Source: Lepisosteus oculatus
Lineage: Eukaryota; Chordata; Actinopteri; Semionotiformes; Lepisosteidae
Direction of reading: 5' to 3'
NCBI RefSeq assembly: GCF_040954835.1
Contig: NC_090706.1
Location: forward strand, 35,535,148 to 35,599,147
Length of the DNA stretch: 64,000 nucleotides
Position 1 is the first letter of the stretch. Each line of letters opens with the position of its first letter. The translations under genes and the position numbers were made by a program. Positions 10,376-58,500 of this stretch are shown here, one piece after another. Below the pieces are notes generated by a model that did no database searches, was not told the DNA's origin, and saw nothing but the letters and a program-made list of their open reading frames with translations.

Positions 10376-11051
10376 CTATATATTAAGGACAGAATAAAGA
10401 TACAGACCAATAATCAGTCTCAGAGTCCAAAATTGTAGTGAGAAAAAAAAACAGGAGAATAACCTTAAAAGATGAAGGATTCCTCTTCTGAGATGATAGC
10501 AATATTCTGTGTAGATGAAACAATATATAAAGAAAACTGATTAAATAAAACTCATTAAAATCTGAGCCTTTTGTTAGTCATGTCAGACTGTTGGGAGGTT
10601 TGTACTTGGCACGTTTACAGAAAACAGGAATTTCTTCCTACGCAGGTAATACAGAAAATGTCAAATAGGCATGGCCCTCTAAAATCCCGGCTTGTGAGCC
10701 TCAATAATATACTTTCAGTAATATAAAAATAAATTCTAAATACTAATAAAGTATTATGTCAACTTGTCACATGCTTACTAATCTCATACTGAATGCAGTC
10801 TCATCCTTTCATGATCTCATGCTGTTATTAGTAACCCATTGCTTGAAACCTGCCAATGATCTTTGATCGCATTAACAATTAATTTTCTCCTTCTAAAAAA
10901 CTTGCAATACAAATTAATTTCAATACCACTATAACATTGTTAAAGCAATGCATATTCCTTCTGTATTCTGACTTACTACAACATTAAGCACAACTAAATC
11001 AGCATTTGTTTATCAAAAATCATTATAAATAAGCATGTTTTTCATTAAATA

Positions 11052-12414
11052 CAGTGGTGTGAAAAAGTAAGTACACAGCATGAAAAGGTTCGTCTTTTTT
11101 ACATTTGTGGACAAAAGGATACTTCATCATCATTTTAACAATACTGATAGATAAACGTGATCTTATTTTTTTTAAAATAATAAGATCAAAAGAGCTCTCC
11201 GAGGTCCTCAGAAGAAAGATTGTTGATGCCTATGAATTGGGGAAGGGGTTTTAAAACCATTTCCAAGCAATTTGTAGTCAATCACTCCACTGTCTGAAAG
11301 ATCATCTACAAATGGAGAAAGTTTCAAACCACTGGTAATCTATCCAGGCCAGGTCGTCCCACCAAATTCAGCCCAAGAGCTGACCGAAAGATGCAGCAGG
11401 AAGTCTCCAACAACCCCAGAATAACATCAAGGGAGTTACAGGCAAGTCTTGCCTCAGTCAATGTCAAAGTGCATGAGTCAACCATCTGATAGAGACTGCA
11501 CAACTTTGCCCTACAAGCAAGGTCAGGAAGGAAGAAGTCTCTGATCTCAAAAAAGAATATAGGTGTACGACTGAAGTTTGCCAGACAACACCTGGGTGAA
11601 GATCAGGACTATTAGAACAATGTGGTCTGGACAGATGAGACAAAGGTTTGCTGTTTGGCCACAATGCCAGACATCATGTTTGGCGAAGACCAAAAACTGC
11701 CTTTGACCAAAAGAACCTCATAGCAACTGTAAAGCATGGTGGTGGAAATATTGTTTGGGGCGGCTTTTCTGCCTCAGGGCCTGGCCAGCTTGCCATTATA
11801 GAGTCAAGCATGAATTCCACATTGAACCAGAGAGTACTTGAGGAGAATGTGAGGCCATCTGTCAAAAAGCTGAAACTGAACCTTAAGTGGACCTTGCAAC
11901 GAGACAATGACCCAAAACACTCAAGCAAATCCACAAAAGAATGGCTCAAAAAGAAGAAATGGAGGGTTCTGGAATGGCCAAGACAAACCCCAGAGCTTAA
12001 TCCCATAGAAATGCTGTGGGGACTTGAAGCGGGCTGTACATACAAGAAGGCCCTCAAAACATCACACAGTTGAAGGAGTTCTGTAAGGAGGAGTGGGCAA
12101 AAAATGTTCCAAGTCGATGTAGGAGACTGATAGACAATTACAACAAACACCTACAAGAAGTGATTTCTGACAAAGGGGGCAACACCAGCTATTGAAGCCA
12201 GGGCCTGTACTTATTTTTTCCACAGCAGACAATTGCACTTCTGCCTTTTTTTGTTGAATAAATGATTGCAAATAATAATTTTCATTGTTATTTGTTAAAC
12301 TAGATCACCTTTATCTATCAGTATTGTTGAAATGAAGATCAAATATCCATACATGCAAATATGTTGAAAAACACACACTTTTTCATGGGGTGTACTTACT
12401 TTTTCACAACACTG
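11052..12414 (+). mobile_element. Degenerate full-length Tc1/mariner transposon
   Basis: The element is about 1.36 kb, flanked by TA at 11050-11051 and 12415-12416. Its imperfect terminal inverted repeats are roughly 110 bp (left CAGTGGTGTGAAAAAGTAAG, right inverted CAGTGTTGTGAAAAAGTAAG). Each repeat also carries the inner match CAATACTGATAGATAAA. The interior encodes a recognisable but broken Tc1 transposase. It is inserted in intron 1 of the matrin-like gene, in the opposite orientation. Confidence 0.95.
11185..12190 (+). pseudogene. Tc1-like transposase pseudogene
   Basis: The N-terminal helix-turn-helix part is broken by a stop near 11236 and another in the STV segment near 11297. The longest intact piece is 11648-12073 and contains GHNARHHVW, TVKHGGGNIVWGGFSASG, QRDNDPKH and WPRQTPELNPIEMLW. 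The DDE triad can still be traced: D in TDET near 11635, D in DNDPKH, and E in NPIE. A frameshift follows MLWG, after which the family pattern of a basic RAVH-type motif is only seen in another frame. No functional enzyme is expected. Confidence 0.93.
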
Positions 12415-13883
12415 TATATTGTATAAATTAAGTACTGTTTGATAGAAGACCACATTGTTACTGAACTGGCTGTAAACTAATTTTGGCTTTAAAACAGTAG
12501 TTCTGATCCTAGAATAACCCTGTCTGTCATGGTCTTACAACTGTACTCTTGATTAAATAGACTAATTAATAGACTTATTTCTTCATTTGAACTTCTTTAT
12601 TGATTAGATCTTTTGAAACCATTTCTGTCTTTGGCTACCCAAAAACCTGTTCTATGTGTTTTTACAAACACATTTAAAAATCAGAACCCATTCCTTACTC
12701 AACCTGCCTGTCAAATGCTTCATTTTGTGTCTAAGCACCTCTTAACAGGTTGACTGGACATATTGTCCATTGACAATCTCAAACACTCCAACCAAAACAA
12801 ATTGGTTTACAGACATTCCACAAAACTGAACAAGGACAGGTGTAGAATTAAGAAAAAAAGATCAAATTTCTGATGACCAACCCATGCTAACTGGCAGTCT
12901 TAATAATTAATTGGCCACCAGGAAGAGGCGATATCTTCCAGGACCAGGAATGACAACCACTGATCTAGGTAACCATGAATACCTTAATGTTTCCCTCGTG
13001 CAAATCGATTTCTTAACGCAGAAAATGTGATTATTTTTATTACAAACCATTCATAACAAGGCCTCCCTGCCACGCTCAAAAACCCAAGGTTACAACAGAT
13101 GTCAGACTATCCCATCTTGCAGGTACTCCTTTGTTTCCATCGACTACAAAGATAAACGAATAACATCTGGCAACACTTATTCTACTATTTCATACCCAAT
13201 GAAACCAAATGTGGTATACAGTATTTACAGAATTCCTGAATTCGCAAATTGTTGAGTGCGTTCACAAAACAAAAAACAAACAAAAAAAACAGTCGGATCA
13301 AATACGCCTTTTCTTTTACAGGTCCGTTATACTAAGTCACGAACCCCGGGGATTCAACCGCGTTTGTGTTGCTGCTCTCAGGTTTTCTAAGAATTACTTT
13401 AAAAACGGCTAAGCCACAGATCGTTCGCTGCACCGCTACTTAAAAGAACACGACTGCAATTTCTAAAGTGACAAGTATTTTTTTCCCCATTTAACATTTT
13501 AAGAAAGTAATAACTACATTGGGCAGTGGACGATCCCTCGTCTACTGTTTACCTTGGTAGGCAGAAGAACGATTTGATATTATTTATTTCAAAAGGATTG
13601 ACTCGACGCAGGGAAGGTATGTTTGAGACTAAGGCCTACAGTCACCATTCGCCTTTTACCGTTTTGTAAACTGCAATGATCCAGAATATTTAAAGTAATC
13701 AATGCTGCTACTCGTTTCTGACTTTCGGGATTCTTAGGTCACACTGATCATGGCGTGGTCAAAAGGGAAATGATGTTATGTGAAACACTATGCATAACCA
13801 GAAAGGGGAATAGTTAATGCATGTTCTCACAATTCGCTAACATTATGCTTAAAGAGATAAGACTCTTTAAAAAAAAAACTTAC

Positions 13884-15470: not shown

Positions 15471-15511
15471 CTACTGCCCCTGTTCTAGCATAAACTTAGT
15501 TTTTCCCGGGA

Positions 15512-15711
15512 TCTCCGTGAAGTTGGCCCCCACACATACAGCACAATCGATTAAACCCACCGTCTTCGTTAGTTCTACGTTTGTGTCGTTGAAAGTAGCG
15601 TTTGTGCTGCTTTCGTTCCCGAGATATAGCGCCTTGTGTTCCCGGTGATCACGTGACCATGCAGGGTGACTTTGACCTCCAGTGACCCCGTCTGCCGAGT
15701 TTAAGCGTCTG
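15512..15711 (+). repeat. Local repeat A, copy 1
   Basis: A block of about 200 bp running from CTCCGTGAAGTTGGCCCC to GTGACCCCGTCTGCCGAGTT. It includes TTTGTGCTGCTTTCGTTCCC, a GAGATATAGCGCCTTGT segment and a TCACGTGACC E-box. It shares its whole length with copy 3 near 16.73 kb and its first half with copy 2. Confidence 0.8.
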
Positions 15712-15825
15712 TTACCGGTGCGAGAGTAACAGTTCTGCAATCGTGTTCCTCTGTTTGCCCGGGTGGGGGGCGGCGCTGGATTTTGCATTTTAATATCAGT
15801 GTCTTCTGTGCGTTTGTGTGAGCAT

Positions 15826-16155
15826 GTCTGATGTCCTAATCAGAAGAGTTGCGGGTGGAGTCTCAAAAAGCGAACACTAGCAAACAATTGCTTGCTCTTA
15901 CCAAGAGGCTTTAACGAGCACGTCTTGATACTTCATAGCGGTGTGCTTTTAAAAAATCTGAAGTGATCAGTTTCTCATTGTCTCCTTAAATAAACACGCG
16001 CACCAGGGGACGTGTAATGTCCCTATGAATTGGCTTCATCCCAGTGGGGCTGCACACTGGTGGTGGTGGAGGGAAGTCCCCATTACCTGTAAAGCGCTTT
16101 GAGTGGAGTGTCCAGAAAAGCGCTATATCATCAGTGTAAGCAATGATTATTATTA
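15826..16155 (+). repeat. Left arm of a ~330-bp inverted duplication
   Basis: From CCTAATCAGAAGAGTTGC to CAGTGTAAGCAATGATTATT this stretch matches the reverse complement of 19255-19606 with only scattered differences and small indels. It contains the SINE-like signature (AAGCGCTTTGAGTGGAGTGT) joined to a unique-looking segment (CAAACAATTGCTTGCTCTTA). Both arms share that composite structure. Confidence 0.88.
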
Positions 16156-16221
16156 AGTGGCAACCCACTGAAACTAAGCAGGTGTGAGACTGGTCACTAC
16201 CTGCATAAGAGACCTCCTGGG

Positions 16222-16340
16222 AAAAGCTCTGCAAAGCTGCACCCTCTCAGACAGCACAAACGATGAAATCCGCCTCATTCGTTAGTGCTACGTTTGTGCC
16301 GTTAAAAGTAACTTCCCAGCTGCTTCCCAGAGCATGTATT
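16222..16340 (+). repeat. Local repeat A, copy 2 (partial)
   Basis: Contains AGACAGCACAAACGATGAAA and TTCGTTAGTGCTACGTTTGTG, matching the first half of copies 1 and 3, and diverges after TTAAAAGTAA. It sits just inside the left arm of the inverted duplication. The inverted copy 4 sits just inside the right arm. Confidence 0.72.
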
Positions 16341-16725
16341 GAGCTTCCTAGTGCACGCGTATGTATATGACGCTTTTATTAGCAGACCATTCTTGCAATT
16401 CAAGGTACGACGATTTTGTTAGCACTGTAATGCGACTATAACAATTCCGTGTTAAGTCTGTGGAATTTCCAAATTAGGTGTCTTTTGGCGTCGAAAATAT
16501 CATACTAATTTCGTGGGTTTCATACAAGTTTAAAAGCATAATGAAGGATCAAACACGATTCAAATTAATATTTTAATACTTTCGCAGTTGTTTATTCTCA
16601 TGGCGCCTCACTTGATACTACCCTTGGGGGCGATGCATTAACTCTAGCCTCTAAAACCAAAACGTGCGTGCACGTTCTTCTGGTATGTTATGCTGATGTC
16701 CGCTTAATATTTAAAGGTAAGGTAA

Positions 16726-16945
16726 AAGCTCCGTGAAGCTGGCCCCCCTACAGACAGCACAAACAATTAAACCCACCTCATTCATTAGTGCTACGTTTGT
16801 GCCGGTTTGTGCAGTTAAAAGTAAAGTTTGTGCTGCTTTCGTTTCCGAGATATAGAGCCTTGTTTTTCCAGTAATCACGTGACCATGCACGATGACTTTG
16901 ACCTCCAGTGACCCCGTCTGCTGAGTTCAAACGCCCTGTCACAGT
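16726..16945 (+). repeat. Local repeat A, copy 3
   Basis: Parallels copy 1 from CTCCGTGAAGCTGGCCCC through TTTGTGCTGCTTTCGTTTCC and AATCACGTGACCATGCA to TTTGACCTCCAGTGACCCCG. The two copies are roughly 85-90% alike by eye, and this one has a short extra GTTTGTGC insertion. Confidence 0.8.
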
Positions 16946-17139
16946 TCAGCCCGTACACTTAACATTTTAAAGACAACCAATATCCATAAACATATGAGCC
17001 TCCTTAGATGTGAATAATACTAAGACATGACGCATGCCAACAAGTTAACCACCTATGACATAAACCTGTGGTTGTAATGTATGTAAAATCACTGATTGTA
17101 AGATCTATGGTTTTTATTTTAAAAGGCACGTTTTCCTTT

Positions 17140-17300
17140 TCTGTCCCTACCGTGACACGCTGTTGCCAAATGCGTAACTGCGGGATACCATCGCGACAAG
17201 ACCTCCGCAGCATGTCATGGTAGGGACCCCATGTATATCGCGGCAGTGTATATTACGAGTGGCGCCTTGTTCCATGCCACCCTGGCACTGCTGTCGCAAC
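17140..17300. other. CpG-rich left flank of the minisatellite
   Basis: GC/CpG-rich sequence including GAGTGGCGCC and CTGTCGCAACAT. The right flank (17785-17890) reuses the same words in another order (GTCGCAACAGTGGCGCC). This suggests that flanks and array share an origin. No gene is seen. Confidence 0.5.
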
Positions 17301-17800
17301 ATAGGTCTCATATCAGGACATGATACACCCAGATAGGACGTGTCCTGATATATGGATTTTTTGTCTCGACATGAGGTCAGCATATCCTGTCAGGGTATGT
17401 CCTATCGCAACATATGGGCTCCATGTCGTGACATGGGGGCGGGGCATTTTGTCGGGGTATGTCATATCGCGATATACGGGTTTCATGTCGCGACATAGAG
17501 CGGGGGCACTTTGCCGGGGTATGTCATATCGCGATATACGGGTTTCATGTCGCGACATGGGCGTGGCCAGTTTTGACATGTCGCGATATAGGTCCTTTTA
17601 TGTCGCGACATAGGGCGGGGGGAATTTTGCCGTGGTATGTCATATCGCGATATACAGGCTTCATGTCACGACATGGGGGTGGGCGTTTTGTCGGGGTACG
17701 CCATATCGCGATATGTGGGCTCCATGTCGCGACATGGGGGCAGGGGCGTTTTGTCGGGGTATGTCCTATCAAGATATATGGACTAAATGTCGCAACAGTG
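17300..17800. repeat. Palindrome-bearing minisatellite, unit ~62 bp
   Basis: About seven clear units begin near 17395, 17457, 17519, 17575 (shortened), 17634, 17695 and 17758, with a degenerate unit from about 17330. A typical unit is GTATGTCATATCGCGATATA, then CGGGTTTCATGTCGCGACAT, then a G-rich spacer and TTTTGCCGGG. Each full unit carries two perfect palindromes, ATATCGCGATAT and CATGTCGCGACATG. In the unit at 17457 the two TCGCGA centres are 21 bp apart. The array is CpG-rich in an AT-rich region. Open frames on both strands across it are by-products of the repetition. Confidence 0.95.
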
Positions 17801-18033
17801 GCGCCATGAGAGTGATGCGCCAGTCGCAATTGGTACCGCGATGTGATCGTGGTATCGGAGTCGTGAACGCGCTGTGGATGCCGTGACATTCTTTGTCTGC
17901 TATTCAGTTTTAACCTCAGTGCGACTTCTCTTAGATTGATCAGTAGCTGGAAACCAATGGATGTGTAACTGTATATCCAGCGTGTTCATCCAGCACACAC
18001 GGTACACACAGAACTTCCGCTGTGGCGCTTTGC

Positions 18034-18100
18034 CCAATCAGAGTGTCGATTCACACTCTTCACCCAATCGCGGCCCGAGCTGTTCGGGGGTTTAGCCAAT
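18034..18100 (+). promoter_or_regulatory. Triple CCAAT-box cluster, orphan promoter-like
   Basis: CCAAT occurs on the plus strand at 18034-18038, 18064-18068 and 18096-18100, with start-to-start spacing of 30 and 32 bp, close to three helical turns. Regularly spaced CCAAT boxes are typical of NF-Y-driven promoters. No coding exon is recognised immediately downstream; the next known coding exon on this strand is shootin exon 1 at 21577. Confidence 0.5.
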
Positions 18101-18746
18101 CACGGGTCTGAGAGCTGTTCAAGGAAGCAGCGCCAGGTGGATCGGCTTGTTTACTGTCAATGAGAATCTATTTTTAAAACGCTTTACTTATTTGCAAAGT
18201 AACTACATCGGCTTGTTTTTTAACGTCTTTATTGACTCAAAATATCCCGTACTCTTCGAAACAAATATATTTTTTATTTGCAATATAACTGTCTCCGCTG
18301 CTTTCTGTAATGAACACATGGTATTTGAACAATTTGATCGTGTATTTAAGGTAGGGGAAACACCTTCTGCTTTGTACTTCAAAAATGAATAGAAATGTAA
18401 AGCCTATGATCATTGTATTATTATGCTCGCGCTTTCAATTTTGTTTTTTATTGTTAAATTATATCGATCTTGAAACTAATACCTAAAAATGTGAACATGG
18501 GCTCTCGTGTTGTACCAGCGGTAATTTGGAAACTGGTGTCTCTTCACCAATTAAAGGAGTACACAAGCAATACATTTTCGAGAACATGGTTAAAAATTAA
18601 AAGAAAACACCTAACCCAATGAACTAACATAGTAACTTCTTCCTCCATGTAAGACTGTTTATTCGTGTAAAGGCTGCAAAGCCTGGGGTCAACAGATCAA
18701 AAGATCACGGCTGAAAGATCTAGTAGTCGTGACTTTGCTGTTTAGT

Positions 18747-18766
18747 ACGTCACAGAGTGACGTCAC
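18747..18766. promoter_or_regulatory. CRE/ATF-type palindrome
   Basis: ACGTCACAGAGTGACGT (18747-18763) is a 17-bp perfect inverted repeat around a central 3-bp spacer. It overlaps a full consensus CRE, TGACGTCA, at 18758-18765. Binding is inferred from the motif only. Confidence 0.45.
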
Positions 18767-18909
18767 AGCCAGGAAAAGAAGGCGCTATATTGAAATATAT
18801 TGAAACATCCACCCCACCCGAGCAGACAGACACAGAAAACAAATTACCCCCATTGTTTTAATCACAATCAGGAGTTCAAGTACCGAGTTTGGTGGTATCT
18901 GTAAACTTC

Positions 18910-19080
18910 CTTTAGATAGTCACTTGATTACCCGAAATACAAGGCGCTATAACTCGGAAATGAAAGCAGCACAAACGCTACCACAGTGACACAAACCGGC
19001 ATAAACGCAGCACTAACGATTGCGGGGAGTTTCGTCGTTTGTGCTGTTCGACGGGCGGGTGAGCAACTTCATGGAGCAGG
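18910..19080 (-). repeat. Local repeat A, copy 4 (inverted)
   Basis: The reverse complement contains AACAGCACAAACGACGAAAC, CGTTAGTGCTGCGTTTATG, GTTTGTGCTGCTTTCATTTC and GAGTTATAGCGCCTTGTATT, in the same order as copies 1 and 3. It mirrors copy 2 relative to the inverted arms. Confidence 0.78.
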
Positions 19081-19239
19081 ACAAGCAAACGTGAGCTCGT
19101 CGCTTCATGTTTGCGCATAAGACCCCCGTAAATACAAACACACGGATAATGACATTCATAAAAAGTGCAACAGTGATCTTGTTGTTCGTAAAGTTGCAGA
19201 TTCAAGCATTTTTGAACACGGCTCGACTGACGGGTCGAA

Positions 19240-19242
19240 TCT

Positions 19243-19286
<44 letters not shown>

Positions 19287-19606
19287 TGCTTACACTTATA
19301 TAGCGTATTTATGGACACTCCACTCAAAGCGCTTTACAGGTAATGGGGACTCCCCTCCACCACCACCAGTGTCCAGCCCCACTGGGATGAAGCCAATTCA
19401 TAGGGACATTACACGTCCCCTGGTGCGCGTGTTCATCTAAGGAGACAGTGAGAAACTGATCACTTCTTCAGATTTTTAAAAAAGCACACCGCTAGGAAGT
19501 ATCAAGACGTGCTCGTTAAAGCCTCTTGGTAAGAGCAAGCAATTGTTTGCGAGTGTTCGGTTTTTGAGACTCCACCTGCAACTCTTCTGATTAGGGCATG
19601 TGATAT
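19240..19606 (-). repeat. Right arm of the inverted duplication, with (TAA)n end
   Basis: 19255-19606 is the inverted partner of 15826-16155. It begins at a (TAA)n microsatellite (19243-19286), followed by GGACACTCCACTCAAAGCGC. It runs through GTCCCCTGGTGCGCGTGTT to CAACTCTTCTGATTAGGGCA. The sequence from 19607 to about 19705 continues as a SINE-like fragment with GGGGATTATTAGGAG. Confidence 0.88.
19243..19286. repeat. (TAA)n microsatellite
   Basis: An uninterrupted run of about 14 TAA units forms the end of the SINE-like repeat. Confidence 0.95.
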
Positions 19607-20243
19607 TTGTGACATCAGCTATCACTCAGTGGGGAGGAGAGCAGAGTAATGAAGCCAATTCATAGATTGGGGATTATTAGGAGTTGCAGGGTGATATGGC
19701 TGCTGGCACATGAAACAGCTAAAAGTAATCTAGAAGATGTCATTTAAACATTTTGTGTTAAGTGCAATTTTAAAATAACACTTATTATTTTACCGTGGTG
19801 ATTTCTGCAAAACTGTGCTGCAACAACACTACACACCTTTTACAAATGTCGTCTATACATCATTTTCACTCCCTAAAGGTGTGGGATAAAGCCCAATGGT
19901 TGCACGAATTACGAACAATAAAAAAGCTAACATTTTATGATGAGACCCTATTGAGGAGAGGATGGATGAATGGATCACAGTCCCCGGACAACAGCAGTAG
20001 CACTTCATTTACTGAGTTCATTTCCGTATCACATTGATACAATTCATCACCGCACTCTACCGTAGTATTTGGATAATGTGTACTACGAGAAAAACCCAGT
20101 GAAGAAACCAGTCAAGCTAAATTAGCCTTTTCTAACTTTGGTTTATTTGTCCGTTTTAAACAAGTGCAAAATCCAAACATAAAGTAGGGCTGCGTTGCGT
20201 GTAATCCCGCAATTTGCAGTTACACCCTGTATGGGACCATTAT

Positions 20244-55545: not shown

Positions 55546-55553
55546 CTTAAAAC

Positions 55554-58500
55554 ATGGCGTCTCAGTACTACCAAGATATGCAGGAGAGCTTCAGAAATAA
55601 CAACAAGAGTCGAGAGTTCCCGGCGCACAGCGCTAAGGTTCACTCGGTCGCATGGAGCTGCGATGGCAGGAGGTTAGCATCTGGGTCATTCGATAAAACC
55701 GCCAGTGTGTTTGTTCTGGAAAAAGACCGCCTGGTAAGTGAGGGTTTGTTTTCGAACATTGCCCCCATCCTTTTATTTATTTGGAAGAATGCCATCTGTT
55801 TACTTGCTTTTAGCATCTTAAAAGACTTGATTTACAACTTCAGTAATGGAATTTTTTATTATCTTAAGTTATTAAATTAACGAATATATTTACAAATGAA
55901 TGAACCTACGTGTCATGTCACCGTTGAAAGGCAGATGGCGTAGGTGCATTACGTCTGAATTCTGTCTGGTCGACTCTGAATTGATATTTCGTACAATTAC
56001 GGTAGATGAAATATGAATTATATTGTATTAATTGGCTCTAAGGTACTACACCTAGTGAAAATAGTGCCAATGCTATTATCATTATTATTATTACATTATT
56101 ACGTGAAAAGAAAATCATTCCACATCAAAAGTCTGAGCTCTGCATCTAAAAGTTCCATTATCGATAGCTCCGCTCATCTGTATTCGGTGTAGGTTTGCAA
56201 TGTCCTAAAGTAAAATGTTTATCACGAATAAAGTGCCATTTTATCTAGATATGTGTGTTAACATTCTTAAGTGGATGTATCCGTGACAATTCTGAAAAAT
56301 GTGAAGATGGATCTCTTTGATAGCTGACTTTAATCTGTTTTCAGGTGAAGGAGAATAACTATCGAGGTCATGGAGACAGTGTGGACCAGCTATGTTGGCA
56401 CCCTACCAACCCAGATCTCTTTGTCACTGCTTCTGGGGACAAGACAATACGCATCTGGGATGTTCGGACTACAAAGTGCATCGCGACTGTCAATACTAAA
56501 GGTTCAGAACAATATGTGTTTTGTTCAGAGACTCATTGATAAAAACACGCTGAAATGTGTATATACAATTCCTTGCATTTACATTGCTCTTTTAATCTCA
56601 AACTATCTAGAAATGGACCCACTTCATCTACTGCTCTAGTGAAACACTAATCTGGGTATGCACTGTTGTCCTGCTGCAGTGTAGATCATTGAGAAACTAC
56701 CTCACCTATTGAGGAGGAAATTCTAGGAGGTTGGACTGGGCAAACTGGGCAGTGACATTACTGGAACAGTCTCATCTTACACTATCATACACCTGTTACA
56801 TTTACTGATTTTTGTTTGCTGTTGACATAATCAGAGTAAACATTATCTCTATTGGAGGCATTAACTAACACGGGTGATTGAGAAATTACTGTAATTTTCT
56901 GAACCAACCTTTAGCCTTAGTTTGAAAGAATACATGAAACCATAATGTAAAGTTCAAATATAAAAAAGCATCTTTTTGTGTATTTTTTGTTAATTGAATA
57001 TTCGAGCAAAAGTGGATTTGTCCCATGATAAAAATGTTTGTTGGTCACTGTTGTTAATGGCAGTCTGGCTGATTGCTCATGTGCTCTTTCTGTGGCTAGG
57101 GGAGAACATCAACATCTGTTGGAGCCCTGATGGACAGACAATTGCAGTTGGCAACAAGGATGATGTTGTGACCTTTATTGATGCGAAAACCCATCGTTCC
57201 CGGGCAGAGGAACAATTTAAGTTTGAAGTGAATGAGATCTCTTGGAACAACGATAATGATATGTTCTTCTTGACGAATGGTAACGGCTGCATCAACATTC
57301 TTAGGTAAGGGAAAGCAATCTTTCTGTTCGTCAAAGTGATGAATTGTCTTTAATACAGATGTTTGAAAGAGCATAGGCCACTACAGTGTTTGTGTTTTAG
57401 CACATATATTCACAAATCATTTCCCACAGATACTGTTATTTTTTGCTATAATTGGTCATGTATATTGTAAATGTATAGCATTTATACAGTTAAGCATATA
57501 CACTATAATTGGCTGCATATCAGATTTAGTTTTTAGGACAAGTGTAAGTAATAGTATTTTTTTATTAACTCCCTGTGAATGAAGGTCACAGAATGATTGG
57601 GATGTGCAATTAGTGAATCTTTTTAACACCTTTACTAGTGATGATTATAGTGAGTTCTTCTGTTTCAGTTACCCAGAGCTAAAGCCAATCCAGTCGATCA
57701 ATGCTCATCCTTCAAATTGTATCTGCATAAAGTTTGACCCTACTGGCAAGTACTTTGCGACAGGGAGTGCGGATGCACTTGTTAGCCTGTGGGATGTGGA
57801 AGAGCTGGTTTGTGTCCGCTGCTTTTCCAGGTGAGTCCATACCTGCATGAACCCTGACTAATTCCAATTTTCTGGTTATAATGTAGTTCCAGTTGAACTC
57901 TTAGTATTTTCCTATATGGGGTGATATTATATGTATGAACATCTATTCTGATGTTTTGAGAAGAAAATATTCTGTTTGTACTATGCATATTATATATTGA
58001 CTATTCTTATAGCCATAAAAAGGACCCATAATACAACAATACATCTGTTCTAGATTCTCCATTGGTATAGTGCCTTCATGTAGGTGTTTAGAAGTAATTA
58101 TTACAGAAATAAGATTTCTTTAACAGCAGGTTAGGCCTCTGTGTGATATAATTTTTGTGTGACATTTAATTGCAGTTCCTGCTGATCACGCTGAAATGAT
58201 TGTGATCTGAATTGAGTCTGTGATGCATAAGATGAATGTTAGAATTATTCCTTATGTTATAGAGGACCTGCTGTGTCTTCAATATATTCCATACTGATTG
58301 ATTAACCTTTTTTTTTCTGAGGCTTGACTGGCCTGTTAGGACACTGAGTTTTAGTCATGATGGGAAAATGCTAGCCTCAGCATCAGAGGACCACTTCATT
58401 GACATTGCTGAGGTGGAGACAGGTAAGCATCTCTGACCTGAAAACCTAAGTAATAATATGTGCCAAAGTGGAAAAAGAAAATGCACTTTTGTAATTTTGT

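Follow-up and report, generated by a model that had tools for sequence, protein, structure and literature searches.

Tetris, a Foldback-type transposon of Drosophila virilis, is non-autonomous, has no apparent coding capacity, and combines modular ends with internal tandem repeats; its target duplications measure 8–10 bp, and a related element shares its ends (PMC4079207). The repeats of Tetris, about 220 bp long, lie in the terminal repeats and also build satellite arrays of kilobase size (PMC4079207). Rehavkus and aphid Phantom are both Mutator-related: the former combines a 9-bp duplication and terminal repeats with a minisatellite placed before the 3′ terminal repeat, and the latter has an 8–10-bp duplication, terminal repeats and a minisatellite after the transposase ORF, the hosts listed for Rehavkus and Phantom being invertebrates, with Tunicata and an ichnovirus also given for Phantom (PMC6446971). 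In Galileo, a member of the P-element superfamily with foldback-like ends, the transposase sites lie in repeats arranged in tandem within the long ends, are of the THAP type and have been tested experimentally (PMC3688188). In Hermes, finally, BED domains bind to a quasi-palindromic sequence close to the end of the element (PMC10368747).

The element described here, from Lepisosteus oculatus, resembles Tetris in being non-autonomous and without apparent coding capacity, in its modular ends and internal tandem repeats, and in having target duplications (9 bp) and relatives that share its ends, in this case free of the array. Like Rehavkus, it joins a 9-bp duplication, terminal repeats and a minisatellite; this set of traits, found in Mutator-like elements, Rehavkus and Phantom, is not sufficient for membership. 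By contrast with Tetris, its palindrome-bearing repeats do not lie in the terminal repeats but form a single array in the middle of the element, built from 62-bp units that bear palindromes in pairs; in 37 copies this array measures 49–599 bp. As in Galileo, tandem repeats are proposed to hold repeated binding sites, but the core here is a BED/ZBED1-type word and its binding is predicted, whereas that of Galileo was tested. The closest counterparts in build are Tetris/Foldback and Rehavkus.

The copy analysed in detail lies in a stretch of 64,000 nucleotides (hereafter the window), and its features are as follows, in window coordinates.

15510–15983, plus strand: long-form outer left arm, which opens with a copy of the terminal repeat (ATCTCCGTGAAGTTGG); the repeat occurs again at 16225–16310.
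16727–16886, plus strand: left-hand terminal inverted repeat, with AGCTCCGTGAAGCTG at its start; this is where the short form has its outer terminus, with an abrupt edge in several other copies.
16887–17387, plus strand: left body of the element.
17388–17797, plus strand: minisatellite array whose 6–7 units, each about 62 bp, carry near-palindromes of two types centred on TCGCGA (TRF, repeat search, local alignments in 37 copies).
17464–17475, no strand: palindrome P1, ATATCGCGATAT, found again without mismatch at 17526–17537, 17642–17653 and 17703–17714.
17546–17559, no strand: P2 palindrome CATGTCGCGACATG; also exact at 17723–17736, and with one mismatch at 17422–17435, 17484–17497 and 17662–17675.
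17424–17734, no strand: seven places matching TGTCGYGAYA, starting at 17424, 17486, 17548, 17579, 17601, 17664 and 17725.
17798–18915, plus strand: right body of the element (32 sequences over 17810–18560).
18916–19077, minus strand: inverted terminal-repeat copy to the right of the body (repeat search, locus comparison).
19409–19614, minus strand: long-form right arm, which is truncated near 19614, short of the outer terminal repeat (repeat search, locus comparison).

The tandem array at 17388–17797 that an earlier note on this sequence had described, with a unit of about 62 bp, is real: TRF reports a period of 62 with 6.4 copies over 17388–17778, a related row extends to 17797, and the repeat search agrees on the unit. 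One unit junction is about 10 bp shorter. The note's centre-to-centre distances of 21 and 41 bp are right for the unit it quoted (palindromes at 17464–17475 and 17484–17497, with the next P1 at 17526–17537), yet its two perfect palindromes per unit were an overstatement, P2 being perfect only at 17546 and 17723 and the last unit having neither P1 nor P2 intact; similarly, its bounds of 17300–17800 come near the array limits, but the element as a whole spans about 15510–19614. Within the window, all four occurrences of P1 and all five of P2 (two exact, three with one mismatch) fall inside the array, and shuffled sequences contained none of either. Open frames cross the array, yet the two that were scanned gave no Pfam match above cut-off and a coding role was set aside; no RNA family reached the gathering threshold within the window.

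The array forms part of the interior of a DNA transposon that is dispersed, has no recognised coding capacity, and shows terminal inverted repeats and 9-bp target duplications. The element ends read AGCTCCGTGAAGTTG...CAACTTCACGGAGCT, and at four or fewer substitutions these inverted sequences form the termini of the elements at loci L002, L005, L020, L026 and L040, as in class II (TIR) transposons. Among 40 end pairs, taken from 48 fetched loci that overlap and represent 37 distinct copies by position, 9-bp target duplications with at most one mismatch flank five distinct array-bearing insertions (six rows). The duplication is perfect in L002 (CTGTACTGC/CTGTACTGC) and L040 (CAGAGAAAC/CAGAGAAAC), and has one mismatch in L005 (the same insertion as L033), L020 and L026; a shifted control gave 0 of 240. 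When lengths of 8, 9 and 10 bp were tried, 9 bp alone fitted, and the duplication has this constant length, as in TIR transposons, in the five array-bearing insertions and in three array-free relatives. The remaining 34 of the 40 end pairs, which showed no matching 9-bp duplication, are taken as internal, truncated or wrongly paired ends. The five intact elements flanked by duplications measure 1633–2747 bp. A virus or LTR element was set aside, as the ends and 9-bp duplications favour a DNA transposon. hAT transposons make 8-bp target duplications, a length that did not fit here, and a hAT origin is disfavoured because the target duplication is 9 bp.

Used as a genome query, the array gave 56 matches, spread over many contigs, from the best 40 of 181 candidates, the main matches outside the window having 77–84% identity; the flanks are repeated in the genome as well (best 40 of 885 candidates for the left, best 40 of 179 for the right). 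The exact pattern P1-N9-P2 has 70 matches in 52 arrays on 18 contigs, with none in the control, and the exactness of the pattern makes 52 a lower bound. Comparison of the 48 loci revealed a sharp left edge at 16727 in several copies, while others continue into further end copies. Both array flanks recur together with the array across the fetched copies, which is not the behaviour of a stand-alone satellite, and the suggestion of a young expanding satellite in the earlier note is not supported: the array lies in a transposon that has been copied, together with its flanks, to many sites. That note had named thousands of dispersed copies of a known satellite as evidence against its reading, and dispersed copies do exist in the same genome (at least 52 arrays; 181 candidates for the array query).

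Three array copies, at G000:C6:42638865, 42653988 and 42669165, share one orientation and follow each other at intervals of about 15.1 kb, probably reflecting the tandem segmental duplication of a stretch of about 15 kb. Copies also seem clustered in a few megabase-size blocks (C8 at 10.6–13.2 and 45–48 Mb, C6 at 41–46 Mb, C11 at 7–8 and 32–36 Mb, and others). At L010:2293–3519, the array is interrupted by inserted sequence that matches zf-RVT, a LINE-type domain (E 1.2e-7).

The window copy is of the long form. Its inverted arms, 169 and 133 nt long, show 95 and 92% pairing, and one alignment of the arms covers 329 bp at 93%. Terminal-repeat copies at 15510, 16225 and 16727, together with right arms that mirror the outer left arm in other copies (L017, L034, L036, L041 and L044), make up the long modular inverted ends characteristic of foldback elements. 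A SINE-like piece with a TAA tail is mirrored in both window arms, at about 16018–16155 and 19246–19408; it is missing from the otherwise continuous right arms of L017, L030, L037 and L044. We infer that the window arms were copied onto each other, by gene conversion or fold-back repair; alternatively, the mirrored pieces may be two separate insertions. Elsewhere in the window, a Tc1/mariner-like element occupies 11049–12417, its inverted repeats (11049–11168 and 12297–12417) flanking an ORF that matches DDE_3 (E 3.6e-9), and an ORF at 55551–55880 has a WD40/THOC3-type match (E 3.5e-12) and is likely an exon or a processed copy.

An 84-bp end used as query returned 614 candidates, of which the best 40 were scored. 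From 41 rows of this end search, 15 further loci were chosen as lying away from known array places, some such rows being left out. Array sequence is present in three of the 15 (L050, L057 and L059). These loci yielded 12 end pairs, whose 9-bp flanks agree at 9/9 positions in L058 and L062, 8/9 in L051, 7/9 in L057 and at most four in the other eight; L051, L058 and L062 are array-free relatives with the same ends. Because array-free loci carry the same ends, there is a larger family of end-sharing elements, of which the array seems to mark one branch. At L061:4591–5143, part of the end repeat (window 16777–16867) recurs about every 146 bp, as in foldback elements.

No autonomous partner was found among the 15 further end-bearing loci, and no transposase in the 12 of 80 listed ORFs that were scanned (5 of 40 from the first set, 7 of 40 from the 15 further loci). 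The Pfam MULE domain PF10551 gave no matches from eight candidates in the genome, and no domain above cut-off was present in the 354-aa ORF of L043 or in the scanned ORFs of the right body (17798–18915; Pfam). Across the ORFs scanned, the element has no recognised coding capacity. That the genome harbours a Mutator/Rehavkus-like foldback lineage, of a group whose occurrence in vertebrates is doubted, with non-autonomous members carrying a phased array of ZBED1 sites, is conceivable, but we regard it as unlikely.

The core of P2, TGTCGCGACA, matches on both strands, and exactly, the site of ZBED1/hDREF, the hDRE, given as TGTCG(C/T)GA(C/T)A (PMC6179265, PMC8775481, PMC6192621). The hDREs of these papers are promoter sites, whereas the matches here lie in a transposon array. 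A hybrid palindrome at 17579, TGTCGCGATA, also matches the hDRE, and the P1 core, TATCGCGATA, is one base off. In the 64-kb window, TGTCGYGAYA occurs at seven places (11 strand-specific matches), all in the array and none elsewhere; shuffled sequences contained 0.14 on average and one at most. One match to a short palindrome may nevertheless be due to chance, given the hundreds of known factor motifs. ZBED1/DREF is a host protein, a domesticated hAT transposase, and ZBED1 SELEX motifs resemble TATCGCGACATA. In literature searches, no paper pairing ZBED1 with TGTCGCGA was found, and PMC6192621 alone was found for its pairing with TATCGCGA; searches on the two 10-mers, and on Rehavkus, foldback and fish terms, returned no such array by title among the matches listed, an absence that is not proof of novelty.

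The spacing of the palindromes is restricted. In the fetched copies, P1 and the following P2 are 21–22 bp apart in 244 of 252 cases, and the distance from P2 to the next P1 is 40–44 bp in 189 and 30–32 bp in 38 of 232, with five outliers (22, 34, 36, 38 and 39 bp, once each). Genome-wide, there are 302 perfect P2–P1 pairs within the allowed gap; among the 100 of these that were listed, 19 are at 30–32 bp, 80 at 39–44 bp, one at 47 bp and none at 33–38 bp. The 31-bp class is represented in 24 of 37 copies. Spacings of 21, 31 and 41–42 bp fit two, three and four helical turns, in keeping with the helical phasing suggested in the earlier note. However, the phase score (0.85–0.87) is nearly flat over periods of 10.0 to 11.0 bp and does not single out 10.5 bp, and its null is uniform and takes units as independent although they share descent. 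For these reasons, and with length classes that possibly stem from few events, helical phasing was not accepted as proven selection.

With a probability of about 0.5, we favour the reading that the array is a cis-acting platform for a BED-zinc-finger dimer, which would belong either to the transposase of a putative autonomous partner or to a putative host ZBED1/DREF, the published site of ZBED1 coinciding with the P2 core. The bound word would be the 10-bp core TRTCGCGAYA, set at two, three or four helical turns, with one dimer per palindrome and the sites on one face of the DNA. Several loaded dimers might help end-synapsis, or a host activator might be attracted and keep the element DNA accessible. 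Constraint would have acted mainly on the mobile lineage before copies spread, inserted copies then decaying at about the neutral rate. Galileo and Hermes provide precedents (PMC3688188, PMC10368747). The array is central in the element and not subterminal, which counts against this reading. The clustered protein-binding platform mentioned in the earlier note gains from the identity of the core with a published ZBED1/hDREF site and from the clustered spacings, while binding itself is predicted.

A credible, if somewhat improbable, alternative is that the array is a passive passenger: a minisatellite made by slippage and without function. The apparent conservation of its palindromes would then reflect the spread of a few units by replication and unequal exchange, with more mutation and slippage in the G-rich spacers. 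The pattern of variation bears directly on this. Across 273 units (partial ones included) in 37 copies, the majority base is kept at 95.0% in P1 and 93.1% in P2, compared with 73.5% and 85.1% in the two spacers, and when 190 near-complete units are set against the closest unit of another copy, palindromes differ at 2.85% and spacers at 8.1% of non-CpG sites. The equal rates in palindromes and spacers that the earlier note had named as evidence against its reading are not observed, and taken by itself the difference would point to selection on the palindromes; the more telling comparison, however, is with the element's own unique flanks. Non-CpG divergence at 18 palindrome sites is 4.93%, against 4.65% in these flanks (p 0.63; 31 and 32 flank sequences; 4.9% from the majority over 16727–17300 in the 31), and 17.7% in the spacers. 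Because the palindromes diverge like the flanks, the excess sits in the spacers, where it is read as older between-unit variation in the mobile lineage. Inserted copies decay evenly, as the equal divergence of palindromes and flanks indicates; there is therefore no support for a function that inserted copies would serve in the host today, and present-day purifying selection on whole palindromes was not borne out.

Palindromes diverging at the flank rate, with the excess in spacers only, are as expected of a passenger. Some spacers contain long G runs, and the junction that is 10 bp shorter could be due to slippage in TGTCGGGGTATGTC, where TGTC recurs at a distance of 10 bp; by such a 10-bp loss the 31-bp class could have arisen without selection. 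A foldback element with internal tandem repeats is also known (PMC4079207). Against a passenger, spacer lengths stay near 31 or 41–42 bp (33–38 bp in none of the 100 listed of 302 pairs and in 3 of 232 fetched), whereas G-run slippage alone should spread lengths more broadly. Moreover, the kept sites form a known factor motif, and its core changes more slowly than A/T sites of the flanks: the eight A/T sites fixed in the hDRE diverge at 1.45%, compared with 4.03% at flank A/T sites (p 0.034), and at 1.13% in 200 internal units (p 0.013), values that come from sites picked after the motif was recognised, from units found by match-seeking alignment and from p-values that assume independent sites. 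The outer palindrome arms diverge at 9.2% (p 0.033), or 5.8% in internal units, and a few A/T positions in the spacers change almost as little as the core (2.2 and 3.5%). At the R and Y sites of the core, A/G or C/T exchanges make up 50 of 57 changes, although such transitions are the commonest kind in any case. The slower core sites and the more variable outer arms are taken as a hint of conservation centred on the 10-bp core TRTCGCGAYA.

It is quite improbable, in our judgement, that the array is a CpG- or methylation-dependent element whose paired CGCG cores are targets of a Kaiso-like methyl-CpG reader or of the CGCG-element factor. The latter is BANP. TCGCGA holds two CpGs, and the observed/expected CpG ratio is 1.33 in the array but 0.36 in the window, so that CpGs do persist, as the earlier note had stated. 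The persistence is not special to the array, however: the ratios are 1.05 and 1.04 in the majority sequences of the element flanks and 0.78 and 1.01 in the window copy's own flanks. High CpG content is a property of the whole element. CpGs are kept at 79–87% in palindromes and at 72 and 80% in flanks, and palindrome CpGs decay about as those of the flanks (8.5% versus 7.8 and 11%, the flank values varying with the cut used, 10.9 and 6.0% or 11 and 7.8%); special preservation of CpGs in the array was not borne out, as richness in CpG extends over the entire element, which decays at much the same rate throughout. The CGCG element TCTCGCGAGA resembles the palindromes and, by the title of the paper, is methyl-sensitive (PMC6192621), but its flanking bases differ from TRTCGCGAYA, and the same paper sets it apart from the hDRE.

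Action of the palindromes by shape, whereby cruciforms, hairpins or palindromic RNA would cause replication to stall, recruit nucleases or give rise to small RNAs, is very improbable: the array strand does fold at −82.1 kcal/mol, against a mean of −54.3 in 100 shuffles (z −7.8), but any palindrome array is expected to fold well, symmetry-keeping paired changes are near the chance level (both arms changed in 7 cases versus 4.7 expected for P1, and 11 versus 9.8 for P2), and the outer arms, which a hairpin would need, vary more than the 10-bp core (9.2% versus 1.45%).

Why foldback-type elements hold internal repeats is unsettled, and the work on Galileo proposes that transposase sites are multiplied (PMC3688188); the repeat described here, a short and regularly spaced word of a known factor set in fast-changing spacers, makes this idea directly testable. 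Whether Mutator-like elements occur in vertebrates is a question left open by PMC6446971, on which an autonomous partner with 9-bp duplications would bear. If the array is a platform for ZBED1, one transposon would exploit the DNA-binding domain of another, long domesticated, and the copying of the element would have sown dozens of ready-made ZBED1 site clusters genome-wide. Should ZBED1 indeed bind, at least 52 dense ZBED1 clusters would have been spread in this way, a natural experiment in transposon-seeded regulatory sites.
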